DNA of 26,918 nt from contig MU646396.1 of the NCBI GenBank assembly GCA_026770585.1, positions 445,732 to 472,649 on the forward strand. The letters are read 5' to 3'. Below are positions 7,398 through 16,162 of this stretch, in pieces. The number at the start of each line of letters is the position of its first letter. Position 1 is the stretch's first letter. The notes below the pieces were generated by a model, which was given only the letters and a program-made list of their open reading frames with translations, did not search any database and was not told the origin of the DNA. The translations under genes and the position numbers were made by a program. Source of the DNA: Baffinella frigidus. Taxonomy: Eukaryota; Cryptophyceae; Cryptomonadales; Baffinellaceae.

Positions 7398-9141
7398 ATG
7401 GAGAATAAACAAAATTTCGGCGGGCAAATGATGGGTGGGATGGAGGGCGACCGCGAATCTGGGCAGGACGTCCGCTCTGCCAACGGTGCAGCCCCGCCGC
7501 CCCGGAACAAGACTGAAGCAAGCAAGCCCAGCCACAGCAGATCGTGCGAGCTGTTGGGTCCCCTCCAGGCCGGCTGCTGGGCTCGGGAAGGAGCCCTTTC
7601 ACCGCACATCAGAGCATGGACGATGCGAGTCGCTCGTGAGGAGATTGCCGCGCGCTGGCAGATTGGTGGAGGGTGCAGGGCTCGTGCAAAGCGCGTTCTT
7701 GCTGTGGATGCGCACCAGCAAAGAAGGCGGGTGCCAGTTCGCTAGGGTGGTCGGTCGAGAGAGCAATGTGTGGCGCAGCAGTCGATTCCAGCTTTCCCCC
7801 TGCAGCTATCCGCACGTCGAACCCTGCAGCTGCTCGGAGACGTTCTGCTTGAACCGATGCAGGGCATGAGCCTCGCAGGGGGGGGGGGGGGGTCCAGCTG
7901 CCTGGCATGCTGTGCGCTGCAGTGCTCCGGTGGATACCCAGTAGCGCCCTGCGAGCTCGCCTCCGCCACCATCCCCGTCCACGCGTCACCCCCCTCCCCA
8001 TGCGGCGTCGCGCCTCCACAAGCCCTCCACGTGTCTCAGCTCACCCCTGCCGGATCCACGCCACATGTTCCTTCCAGCTGCGCGCACACAGCCGCCCCTC
8101 GCACTGGCACTGACGCACTCGAGGCGTGGGTAGTAATGACATGCATCGCCATGCGTGCTCCCCCGCTCCCCCGGAGGCTCGGCCCTCCTAGCGCAGACGT
8201 GCGTCGGGCGTGCAGTGCAGGGCATAGGCGTGGAGCGTGGTGCACAACCTGTGCTAAACTGAGCGCTGGTGTATAACCGGTGCTGAACGGTTCCCGTTTC
8301 TCTGTTGTGGCAGTGATGGCGTGCATCGCGATCGCGAACGTGGTGAAGACGTCGCTCGGTCCCGTCGGGCTCGACAAGATGCTCGTCGACGACATTGGGG
8401 AGACCACCGTCACCAACGACGGCGCCACCATCCTCTCTCTCCTCGAGGTCTAGCGCTGCCTCACGCGAATTGCTTGCCCGTTTTCTCACTCAAAGTTGTA
8501 CCATACAACAGGAGAATTAACTTTTGGTATCGTCAATTTCAGGAGACCGGATTCACCCAGGCAGAGCCACCATCGTCTCCTTTTTCGAGGTCTAGTGCAG
8601 TCTATTTGGGCAAAGCATCATGTGGGCCCGGGCGCTTTTCCGCTCCACAGTTGACGGGTTTGTACCGCGAACCCAGCCTGTCGACTTGAGAAGAGTCGGT
8701 GGACCTGAGTGAGGCAGAGGCAGAGCTAGAGGTCTGCGTGCACTTGCACCCCTCCCCCCGTGCGTGCTCTGGACTCATGTGAGTGTTTCATGGCACACGT
8801 GCGATACACCCCCCTCCTCATGTCTGCCTATTCTCAACCCCGCCCTGGGTGACTAGCCTGCCCTTTGGGCTACTAGACCACCCTGCAATTCCCCTGAGAA
8901 TGTCGGTAGACCACCCTGCACCTCCCCTCCACCCGGGTAGAGTGCTCTGCGACCAACCAGCGATGCGTCCCCCCATCCACACCCAGCCAGGTGGGCCCTC
9001 CCCGCACACACCCCCACAACCCGAAACCCAGAACCCGAAACAGGTGGACCACCCCGCGGGGAAGGTTCTGGTGGATCTCGCGCAGCTGCAGGACAAGGAG
9101 GTGCGCCAAGCACCCTACTCCCTGCACCCTAGAGAGAGAGA

Positions 9142-9189
<48 letters not shown>

Positions 9190-15100: not shown

Positions 15101-16162
15101 CCTAAACCTCAAGCACCAAGCCTCGATCGACCGGGGCTGTCCATCCACCTGGAGAACTTCCCCAGGAGGAAATGCCTCAACCTCAAACCTCAACATCAAA
15201 CCTCAAACCTCAAGCTCAAACCTTAACCTCAAACCTGGATGCACTTCGCTGCGACTGAAGACACAAACGCGCAGGCGCGGTGGAGGCGGGGCTGTCGATC
15301 TACCTGGAGAACTTCGCAACGACCCTCTCGTCCCGCGAGCAGATGGCCATCGCTGAATTCGCCGACGCCCTCCTGGTCATTCCCAACCCCGACACCCGGA
15401 ACCTCATTCCCAATTCCGACACCCGGAATCCCCTATATCAATTGTAACCCATGGTTGTCCATCAATTTAACCATCACCTGACTCCCGACGCCCTACGGCC
15501 CAAACCCTACACCCTACACCCTGCACCCTGCACCCTATGCACGACACCCAACACCCATACACCCCTACACCCCTACACCCTACACCCTACACCCTACACC
15601 CTACACCCTACAGCCGAAACTCTTGGCCCTGAATACCAAACCCTACATCCGAAACACTGGTCACTAAACGCCAAACTACAAAGCAGGTGATCCCGAAGAC
15701 ACTGGCGGTGAACGCGGCGTGCGACGCGACGGAGCTTGTCGCCAAGCTCCGCGCAGACCACAACTTCTCGCAGATGGATCCCGCCAAGTACGCGGCCAAG
15801 GCGCACTCGGGCCTCAACCTCACTGACGGGACCGTGCACAACTGCGTGGAGGCGGGCGTCATCGAGCCGGCCATGTCCAAGGCCAAGAGCATCGCCTTCG
15901 CCACCGAGGCACACCCGACACCCGAAACCCGAAACCCTCAACCTAAAGGACCCGAATCCCTGGATCGTACCCCCTGCACCCTACACCCTACACCCTACAC
16001 CCTGCACCCTACACCTCACACCTCACACCCTACACCCTGCACCCTACACCCCAACCCCCAAACCCTAAACCCGCAACCTGATCTCAGGCGGCCATCACGA
16101 TCCTGCGCATCGACGACCGCATCACCATCCAGGCCCGCGAAGAGCAGCACCCGGGTATGTAA
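7398..16162 (+). CDS. CCT1: T-complex protein 1 subunit alpha (CCT1/TCP-1 alpha), 18 exons
   Basis: This is a subunit of the cytosolic CCT/TRiC chaperonin, which folds actin, tubulin and other proteins using ATP. Exons: 7398-7485, 8314-8447, 9044-9100, 9719-9788, 10796-10887, 11083-11161, 11408-11521, 11693-11751, 12561-12644, 12912-12989, 13480-13569, 13762-13803, 14048-14125, 14275-14319, 14672-14822, 15275-15375, 15687-15908, 16088-16162. They total 1659 nt (552 aa plus stop) in frame at every junction; family members are about 545-560 aa. Visible signatures are [120 protein letters not shown] and [10 protein letters not shown]. The start is at 7398; internal Met codons at 7428, 7431 and 7440 are alternatives. 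The end HPGM-stop is provisional because ggtatgt just before it could be a donor. All acceptors are CAG, except TAG before exon 6. Confidence 0.95.
7486..8313 (+). other. CCT1 intron 1
   Basis: An 828-bp intron, donor gtgcag, acceptor gtggcag. Unlike later introns it has almost no telomere-like repeat. It holds a poly-G run (7880-7892) and a decayed copy of the start of exon 2 at 8131-8158 (gtaatgacatgcatcgcc against gtgatggcgtgcatcgcg). Near 8241-8290 there is a short doubled phrase (cctgtgctaaactgagcg, ccggtgctgaacggttcc). The phrase gcacaacctgtgc recurs at about 861. Confidence 0.7.
8448..9043 (+). other. CCT1 intron 2
   Basis: A 596-bp intron. The donor gtctag coincides with the terminus of a family 1 MITE (gtctagcgctgcctcac). 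At 8542-8600 there is a decayed copy of the end of exon 2 plus donor plus MITE terminus (gccaccatcgtctcc...ttcgaggtctag). A fuller MITE lies at 8592-8729. At 8874-8887 and 8907-8920 the phrase tagaccaccctgca copies the start of exon 3 (gtggaccaccccgcg). The acceptor follows a short cccgaaa tract. Confidence 0.7.
8592..8729 (-). mobile_element. MITE-like element, family 1
   Basis: It runs from ctagtgcagtctatttggg to gaggcagaggcagagctag, with gttgacgggtttgtaccg and tcgacttgagaagagtcgg in between. It lies within CCT1 intron 2 and directly abuts a decayed copy of exon 2's end. Confidence 0.65.
9101..9718 (+). other. CCT1 intron 3
   Basis: A 618-bp intron. After donor gtgcgc comes a GA/GT microsatellite (9133-9258), then at 9262-9300 a decayed copy of the end of exon 3 (ctcgcgcagctacatgac, against ctcgcgcagctgcaggac) whose donor has mutated to ttgcgc. 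From 9300 to 9710 it is degenerate CCCTAAA telomere repeat, including five near-perfect units around 9597-9630, running to acceptor ctgcag. Confidence 0.8.
9789..10795 (+). other. CCT1 intron 4
   Basis: A 1007-bp intron, the longest of the gene. It holds a possible decayed copy of exon 4's end plus donor at about 10012-10040 (ttggtgcgtgcgc), a GC/GA low-complexity patch (10058-10112), and a block at 10286-10470 repeating gtgtggggttgcgcacgc three to four times. At 10575-10596 there is a copy of the start of exon 5 (agagatgaaaatccaccca). C-rich telomere-like repeat runs from 10605 to the acceptor. Confidence 0.7.
11162..11407 (+). other. CCT1 intron 6 with duplicated exon 7 start
   Basis: At 11294-11320 the intron carries gactttttcgcggcgatgg and onward, identical for 24 nt to the start of exon 7 at 11407-11430 and preceded by its own aag. 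The sequence diverges after gcggtg. The rest is degenerate telomere-like repeat. Confidence 0.8.
11752..12560 (+). other. CCT1 intron 8
   Basis: An 809-bp intron. Telomere-like and cccgagacccga repeats fill 11765-12030. At 11961-11990 there is a copy of the start of exon 9 (gcgatgccgacagaggtgg) with the acceptor AG lost (cac). From 12100 to 12450 the base composition changes to AT-richer, transposon-like sequence. It has two small hairpins: cagacaccc/gggtgtctg near 12136-12160 and cctggtccgtgaccagg near 12226-12243. Confidence 0.7.
12990..13479 (+). other. CCT1 intron 10
   Basis: A 490-bp intron built of CT microsatellite blocks (12999-13070, 13112-13220, 13395-13442). At 13079-13105 it has a copy of the end of exon 10 (gatatcatgaaggagctc) that is again followed by CT repeat, exactly as the true exon is. 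A weaker resemblance to the start of exon 11 lies at about 13227-13262. The phrase gtcggtattaatca is doubled at 13347-13384. Confidence 0.7.
13804..14047 (+). other. CCT1 intron 12
   Basis: The intron is made of CCCCAAA/ACACCAAAC-type degenerate repeat between donor gtttcc and acceptor acgcag. Confidence 0.75.
14320..14671 (+). other. CCT1 intron 14 with assembly gap
   Basis: The intron contains 205 N (14356-14560) flanked on both sides by CCCTAAA-type repeat. Exons 14 and 15 join in frame, with the residue count expected from human CCT1, so no exon needs to be hidden in the gap. The gap probably marks a longer telomere-like array that could not be assembled. Confidence 0.85.
14823..15274 (+). 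other. CCT1 intron 15 with two copies of exon 16 start
   Basis: Telomere-like repeat surrounds two partial copies of exon 16. Copy 1 (15059-15092) follows an intact cccccag and matches 30 of 34 nt; all four differences are at third codon positions. It then runs into a stop. Copy 2 (15125-15166) keeps ctggagaacttc but has lost the acceptor and several codons. The true exon begins at 15275. Confidence 0.8.
15376..15686 (+). other. CCT1 intron 16
   Basis: The intron starts gtcattcccaac, which still translates as VIPN in frame, and exon 17 starts gtgatcccgaag (VIPK). The two ends of the intron thus carry versions of the same codons. The centre is CCCTACA-type repeat (15500-15615), preceded by a doubled phrase, cattcccaa(c/t)(c/t)ccgacacccgga. 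Confidence 0.75.
15909..16087 (+). other. CCT1 intron 17, GC-AG type
   Basis: After ACC GAG the sequence is gcacac with no GT that keeps the conserved reading [14 protein letters not shown], so the donor is inferred as GC. The intron is CCCTACA-type repeat and ends ctcag. The next exon begins GCGGCC, sharing GC with the donor. Confidence 0.7.

Follow-up and report, generated by a model that had tools for sequence, protein, structure and literature searches.

The stretch of DNA analyzed here, 26,918 nucleotides of Baffinella frigidus contig MU646396.1 (C94:445732-472649 in a 382-Mb genome) and hereafter called the window, carries the gene for T-complex protein 1 subunit alpha, CCT1. An earlier note on this DNA had reported that the introns of CCT1 contain decayed copies of the ends of their own flanking exons, and had read them as introns growing by repeated tandem duplication of exon-intron boundary segments. 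Our exon model of the gene, which includes one corrected acceptor, gives a translation of 550 residues that is 100% identical over its full length to P0001, a transcript-derived protein of 552 residues in the mmetsp/eukprot sets. The model is sound, and its agreement with P0001 means that the copies within CCT1 introns are removed by splicing from a real message. Intron 14 contains a run of N, and intron 17 starts (window 15909) with GC, not GT (ACCGAG/GCACAC).

Copies of exon edges in CCT1 introns

Each copy was scored with a query made of 40 nt of exon and 10 nt of intron, and 15 non-adjacent CCT1 introns served as controls; a second type of query was 45 bp long and contained exon only. All 12 intronic copies listed earlier could be aligned at or near their listed places. 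Ten of them score at least 14 and exceed all 15 control introns, the highest control score among these ten queries being 16 (exon 2 end). The remaining two, both copies of the exon 3 start, are weak: the score of one is reached by 2 of the 15 control introns and that of the other compares with a best control of 10. They are tandem duplicates of each other (22-bp pair 8874-8895/8907-8928). The control introns therefore rule out chance as the source of the copies, except for the two at the start of exon 3. With the exon-only query two further copies were not distinct, namely those of the exon 2 start (score 11, a value also reached in intron 8) and the exon 4 end (score 9, exceeded by three other introns). 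A suspected copy of the exon 17 start in intron 16 reached a score of 6, as did all 15 control introns, and was discarded as a chance match.

The gapped alignments of nine exon-copy pairs span 19 to 63 columns and are 72-91% identical (Table 1). Exon-end copies extend across the donor and exon-start copies across the acceptor; the exception is the second copy of exon 16, whose alignment starts 12 bases inside the exon. Among exon-start copies the splice dinucleotide is intact at exons 2, 5, 7 and 16 and has decayed at exon 9 (AG to AC); among exon-end copies it is intact at exons 2, 4 and 10 and has decayed at exon 3 (GT to TT). Copies with an intact donor or acceptor dinucleotide are possible cryptic splice sites.

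Table 1. Features of the window, with scores and alignments of the exon-edge copies
Feature	Position	Strand	True edge	Identical columns	Score	Best control	Remarks
CCT1 (T-complex protein 1 subunit alpha)	7398..16154	+					18 exons modeled, 17 introns; last codons beyond 16154
Exon 2 start copy with acceptor AG	8129..8155	+	8309-8336	22/28	14	10	
Exon 2 end copy with donor	8543..8603	+	8400-8461	45/62	23	16	
Exon 3 start, two weak copies	8874..8928	+			9 and 11		
Exon 3 end copy, donor decayed	9260..9320	+	9066-9128	47/63	28		GA/GT repeat between
Telomere-like CCCTAAA-type array, intron 3	9300..9705	+					7-state hidden Markov model (HMM)
Exon 4 end copy with donor, probable	10014..10056	+	9780-9819	31/43	15	12	
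Exon 5 start copy with CAG	10576..10594	+	10793-10811	17/19	15		array 10600-10793 between
Telomere-like array, intron 5	10890..11079	+					97% of intron; 7-state HMM
Exon 7 start copy	11293..11326	+	11403-11436	31/34	28		array 11324-11397 between
Exon 9 start copy	11960..11989	+	12555-12584	26/30	22		
Exon 9 start, second copy	about 12470-12505	+			15	11	more decayed; absent from the earlier note
Exon 10 end copy with donor	13078..13118	+	12962-13002	32/41	22		CT repeat between
Exon 16 start copy with acceptor CAG	15048..15092	+	15264-15308	39/45	29		
Exon 16 start, second copy	15125..15167	+			24	14	blind-scan pair 15132-15167/15287-15322
Telomere-like array, intron 17	15913..16078	+					93% of intron; 7-state HMM
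E1 dispersed element (about 20213-20326)	20186..20365	+					outside CCT1; between 24-bp direct repeats 20186-20209 / 20342-20365

Side of the copies across three genes

The comparison of exon edges and their flanks with introns by position, which the earlier note had suggested, was made for 26 introns of three genes (one intron being cut by the end of its locus), with exons of 80 bp or more used to look on the other side. The two genes added to CCT1 were found by searching with the PF00118 and PF08083 families. Both are encoded on the minus strand; one, on C6, is another chaperonin gene, and the other, on C824, has a PROCN domain. We take these to be CCT3-like and PRP8, respectively, provisional names that, like the exon borders, come from reading the frames against known relatives. 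At a score of at least 12, copies lay on the expected side of 9 of 51 exon edges (7/34 in CCT1, the gene where copies were first noticed, and 2/17 in the other two genes) and on the other side of none of 28, while non-adjacent introns gave 14/1184. Raising the score to at least 16 left 8/51 on the expected side, 0/28 on the other and 0/1184 in the control. Copies are thus one-sided and above control, and the claim that their order never inverts holds.

The order is fixed because a direct duplication across a splice site leaves only one copy joined to the exon body; as a logical consequence the unjoined copy precedes the exon when the splice site is an acceptor and follows the exon when it is a donor. 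The fixed geometry had been offered as evidence for one route of duplication, a use it cannot bear since it is logically forced. It points to duplications that span the boundary, not to free copy-and-paste, and cannot choose among duplication routes.

In PRP8, the final exon covered by the sequence is followed, in the downstream intron, by a copy of its end with a score of 26. In the CCT3-like gene, inspection by eye showed that the end of the penultimate exon is repeated in nearly plain tandem, just a few bases apart, the copy including the donor and roughly 50 nt of intron, and that the start of the same exon has two upstream copies with only about 8 exon bases each, which stand outside the 9/51 count. 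An apparent dispersed hairpin element lies between the PRP8 exon end and its copy. Hairpin-type elements with ends like TATCCCTTAAGTGGC...GCCACTTAAGGGATA recur by eye in L043 (reverse strand), L037, L030 and L031, with a variant in the PRP8 intron. Among the 25 complete introns of the three genes, GT forms the first bases of 13 of the 25 downstream exons.

Sequence between a copy and its exon

The CCCTAAA repeat is a telomere type of plants and algae, and a 7-state HMM finds telomere-like arrays of this kind in 15 of the 17 CCT1 introns, filling 91-97% of introns 5, 7, 12, 13 and 17. By word count, the C-rich form runs in the sense direction in 22 of the 26 introns of the three genes; CCT1 intron 4 is the one among these 22 that also has the G-rich form. 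A simple reading of this strand bias would be selection against decoy splice sites, because the C-rich form contains neither AG nor GT.

What separates a copy from its exon varies: for exons 5 and 7 it is an array, for exons 3 and 10 it is GA or CT repeat, for exon 16 arrays are accompanied by other sequence, and for exon 2 there is sequence of other kinds. Immediately beyond the limits of the duplication the two copies are usually unlike. In the exon 7 pair, for example, 25 of 25 positions match and unlike sequence follows on both sides. Such loss of similarity is more readily explained if the duplication surrounds an insert than if it belongs to a larger tandem unit.

The flanks of the arrays also repeat each other. 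At a score of 12, direct repeats flanked 23 of 105 arrays, compared with 1.08 expected from mismatched flanks, and inverted repeats flanked none of the 105; this set and its random intervals include loci L003 and L005 and exclude L029 and L030. At less selected loci (the window, its contig neighbor L032 and six arbitrarily placed loci) the count was 16/83 for direct repeats, against 5.6% of random intervals, and 1/83 for inverted ones.

Local direct repeats outside the exons

We scanned the DNA blindly for local repeat pairs within 700 bp, with low-complexity sequence masked. In 85.9 kb of unmasked sequence, part of which was picked by microsatellite match and which includes the window, itself not a random choice, there were 362 direct and 141 inverted pairs, amounting to 4.2 direct pairs per kb and placing 20.6% of bases in a direct repeat. 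Restricting the scan to the window and the six arbitrarily placed loci gave 195 direct pairs in 53.2 kb (3.7 per kb; 18.4% of bases). These six (L011, L013, L014, L015, L017 and L027) are what remained of 20 sampled 10-kb stretches after 14 that were wholly N had been left out. L003 and L005 were omitted from the scan and from later counts owing to their overlap with L029 and L030, the overlap of L005 being inferred from coordinates. The same scan found no direct and 5 inverted pairs in 49.5 kb of Escherichia coli K-12, and no direct pairs in 85.6 kb of first-order simulated sequence, for which only direct pairs were counted; with a bacterium and simulated DNA as the yardsticks, these comparisons do not imply that such a density is rare among eukaryotes.

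There are 81 simple pairs, which have no copy in common with any other pair; 61 of them are spaced and 20 tandem. In simple spaced pairs of at least 85% identity (23/59) the duplicated stretch measures 18-72 columns, with a median of 34. Within CCT1 the scan returned 9 pairs, 6 of them with one copy touching an exon and none with both copies in one exon, an absence such as selection on the reading frame would give. The earlier note treated the duplication as a process of introns; the same type of duplication fills DNA outside the studied genes too. Elsewhere in the window, positions 4597-4810 hold a perfect 107-bp tandem duplication, two copies with no mismatch, which is likely to be a very recent event of broadly this kind.

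Dispersed elements

Two elements recur in the genome. E1, in the window, gave 42 scored matches and 149 first-look candidates, and all 41 of its other genomic matches exclude both flanking repeats; since these matches stay between the two repeats, the repeats belong to the target. E2 (L027:3505-3629, about 125 bp) gave 1109 first-look candidates and 41 scored matches, the majority of them 94-98% identical; it may perhaps have been active recently, to judge from these sequences. All 40 of its other matches start between 5 and 15 bases from the beginning of the query. The right border is defined by a single relative, which diverges after three bases, and the query of the genome search ended at that border. 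Seven element copies were examined, five of them from the single locus L027. Four have direct repeats of 24-52 columns on either side, at distances of 2/0, 1/2, 4/0 and 3/15 bp (the last being E1), and a fifth was found between a repeat pair of 34 columns that lie 29 and 2 bp away. Target duplication may occur around elements of the E1/E2 type but is not the rule. The insert in CCT1 intron 2, the only insert tested in this way, has one match genome-wide, itself, and its single-copy state rules out an introner family as its source.

Other features of the window and relatives of CCT1

A codon-usage scan of the window picked out CCT1 and a set of lysine- and glutamate-rich frames at 25082-26918 (+); no further clear gene was seen in that scan. 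A C-rich array at 26243-26421 lies in this region, in the same sense (+). Near matches to the CCT1 protein include P0003 (80%), whose incomplete organism label, 'Hemise', we take to stand for Hemiselmis. Another protein, P0006, has 458 residues and comes from contigs of up to 113 kb; it is 90% identical to CCT1 over 79% (exon 5 onward) and has an unrelated start. The presence or absence of CCT1-type introns in this relative would help to date them.

Origin of the copies

The explanation we favor, in which our confidence is about evenly balanced, is that the copies are direct duplications of about 20-60 bp produced by the repair of staggered DNA breaks, often with captured filler, and filtered by selection on the reading frame. 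From the copies, their geometry, the DNA between them and the repeat background outside exons, all observed directly, we infer a staggered break, its fill-in and an order of events as follows. The break would leave overhangs of about 20-60 nt, and once these were filled in and the ends joined the overhang sequence would be present twice, often with filler captured between the two copies, be it telomere-like repeat, microsatellite or other DNA. Such repair duplication would be widespread in the genome, and inside an exon it would usually destroy the gene. If a splice site lay within the duplicated stretch, the copy attached to the exon body would still work, and the other copy together with the insert would become intron and decay. 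Repeated events would yield stacked copies like those of exons 16 and 9. Staggered-break repair would be the simplest common cause of the tandem and spaced pairs, their range of lengths, their direct orientation, the varied inserts and the frame filter. A tentative and more far-reaching proposal, which we think rather unlikely, is that introns in this lineage are built mainly from telomere-type repeat added where exon edges had broken: its C-rich strand, which offers no decoy AG or GT, would be spliced out and its G-rich strand hardly tolerated, and each insertion would leave an exon-edge duplicate, so that introns would be a layered record of repair.

Direct repeats flanking inserts do exceed chance, as the footprint of staggered breaks would have it, and several observations nonetheless weigh against this explanation. 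The enrichment of repeats at array flanks is only about 2.5-3.5 fold over random intervals, which in the DNA of the 105-array set themselves give direct repeats at 8.5%, a high background; and most arrays (67/83 at this score) have no flanking repeat. In the blind scan, telomere-like array makes up more than 40% of the spacer in only 21 of 303 spaced pairs, and spacers have dispersed relatives no more frequently (21/57) than random segments do (116/300). Five of the seven element copies were chosen for lying between a repeat pair, and the two not so chosen have, respectively, a 9-bp repeat and no adjoining repeat. The birth of introns by the same route is likewise unsupported: the start of the intron matches the start of the next exon at 2.56 of 6 positions in 25 introns, compared with 2.49 when shuffled. 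Intron 16 looked suggestive of birth by duplication when inspected by eye, but the test gave no signal.

Serial plain tandem duplication of boundary segments, followed by repeat growth or insertion at the junction, is the model of the earlier note. We consider it rather unlikely, even though 20 of the 81 simple local pairs are tandem, repeat units vary between arrays as slippage would have them vary, and the end of the CCT3-like penultimate exon is nearly a head-to-tail boundary unit with nothing between. The same cannot be said of CCT1 exons 5, 7 and 16, and the 61 spaced pairs outnumber the tandem ones. A larger tandem unit should moreover match on the array side, whereas at exons 5 and 7 the similarity upstream is lost a few bases from the matched part (17/19 and 25/25). 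What stands of that model is that the duplicates are direct, span the boundary, follow one geometry and lengthen introns; most CCT1 copies, though, flank an insert of telomere-like or microsatellite DNA and are not plain tandem repeats. Machinery of mobile elements that inserted small elements and arrays and duplicated the target site over an unusual length (about 25-50 bp) would fit the multi-copy state of E2 and E1 and the long repeats near the ends of four of the seven element copies. Against it, the two copies not chosen for flanking repeats lack long ones, the inserts are mutually unrelated, that of CCT1 intron 2 being single-copy, and the duplications range in length from 18 to 72. That target duplication is not general makes such machinery less likely and serial tandem duplication slightly more likely, and we regard the involvement of such machinery as improbable.

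Templated filler or template switching, in which a polymerase copies nearby sequence into a break, could account for the 141 inverted local pairs that accompany the direct ones. It would place copies on either side of an exon, a prediction contradicted by the one-sidedness of the exon copies, and the flanks of none of the 105 arrays match in inverted orientation at a score of 12; we consider it quite improbable. That the copies are an artefact of assembly, from unmerged haplotype ends or gap filling, seems scarcely credible. The assembly is certainly gapped or masked, as the sampled stretches of N and the N run in intron 14 attest, but the nine aligned exon copies have diverged from the true edges and are separated from them by real sequence, which would hardly be expected of unmerged assembly copies, and copies were found in three genes on three contigs.

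Relation to known systems

In Daphnia pulex, new introns have been proposed to lengthen through repeated staggered double-strand breaks, so that to describe the process as outside the standard models of intron growth, as the earlier note did, was too strong (PMC4202315). As in CCT1, introns there contain direct repeats, including repeats of the terminal bases of the adjacent exon, and repeated events lengthen introns. The exon-terminal repeats of Daphnia are 4-12 bp long, in contrast to 19-63 aligned columns here, where inserts are often telomere-like or microsatellite and repeats are common in all DNA sampled (PMC4202315). Lengthening of introns by staggered breaks has therefore already been published for Daphnia; the longer duplicates, the telomere-like filler and the saturated genome are new here.

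In mammalian cells, breaks with 3' overhangs acquire small tandem duplications through the action of CST and polymerase alpha-primase (PMC8355091). These resemble the present repeats in measuring tens of bp, in being direct and in arising from staggered breaks, and differ in that they are mammalian and tandem, whereas most simple pairs here are spaced. Mammals also insert telomeric repeats at breaks, with duplication of the flanks at 6/130 rodent and 4/25 primate loci (PMC2246262). Such interstitial telomeric sequences likewise place telomere-type repeats at internal sites with flank duplication in a minority of arrays; unlike them, the arrays described here are of degenerate 7-mers and fill introns. 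By analogy with these two systems, telomerase together with fill-in by CST/polymerase alpha would account for telomere-like filler accompanied by short duplications, a combination of the two activities that we infer here.

Direct repeats beside introns are a further likeness, shared with introners and with intron gain by tandem duplication (PMC9860276, PMC4974935). The target duplications of introners are 3-9 bp long (PMC9860276); here the intron 2 insert is single-copy and the test of intron birth was negative. Direct repeats of 4-30 bp near the borders of 213 introns have been taken as marks of insertion (PMC11782384). Both sets of repeats lie at exon-intron borders, but those in that work are at the two ends of one intron, while here the copies lie inside introns, beside the true edge. 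In the titles and abstract openings of the papers listed by our searches on the subject, and in PMC12730881 and PMC9860276 as far as available, we found no description of telomere-like arrays as introns, and a literature search on Baffinella and introns returned nothing.

Implications for intron growth

The origin of intron length is an old question that has usually been argued from a few recent events. Single genes in this genome carry several events that differ in decay, each with a readable footprint, and with about a fifth of the unmasked sampled bases in a local direct repeat, the rate of duplication, its length and the choice of filler become measurable. The genome thus offers a test of whether the addition of telomere-type repeat at breaks builds introns. 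If true, the repair of breaks as we picture it would make introns a readable record of their own growth.

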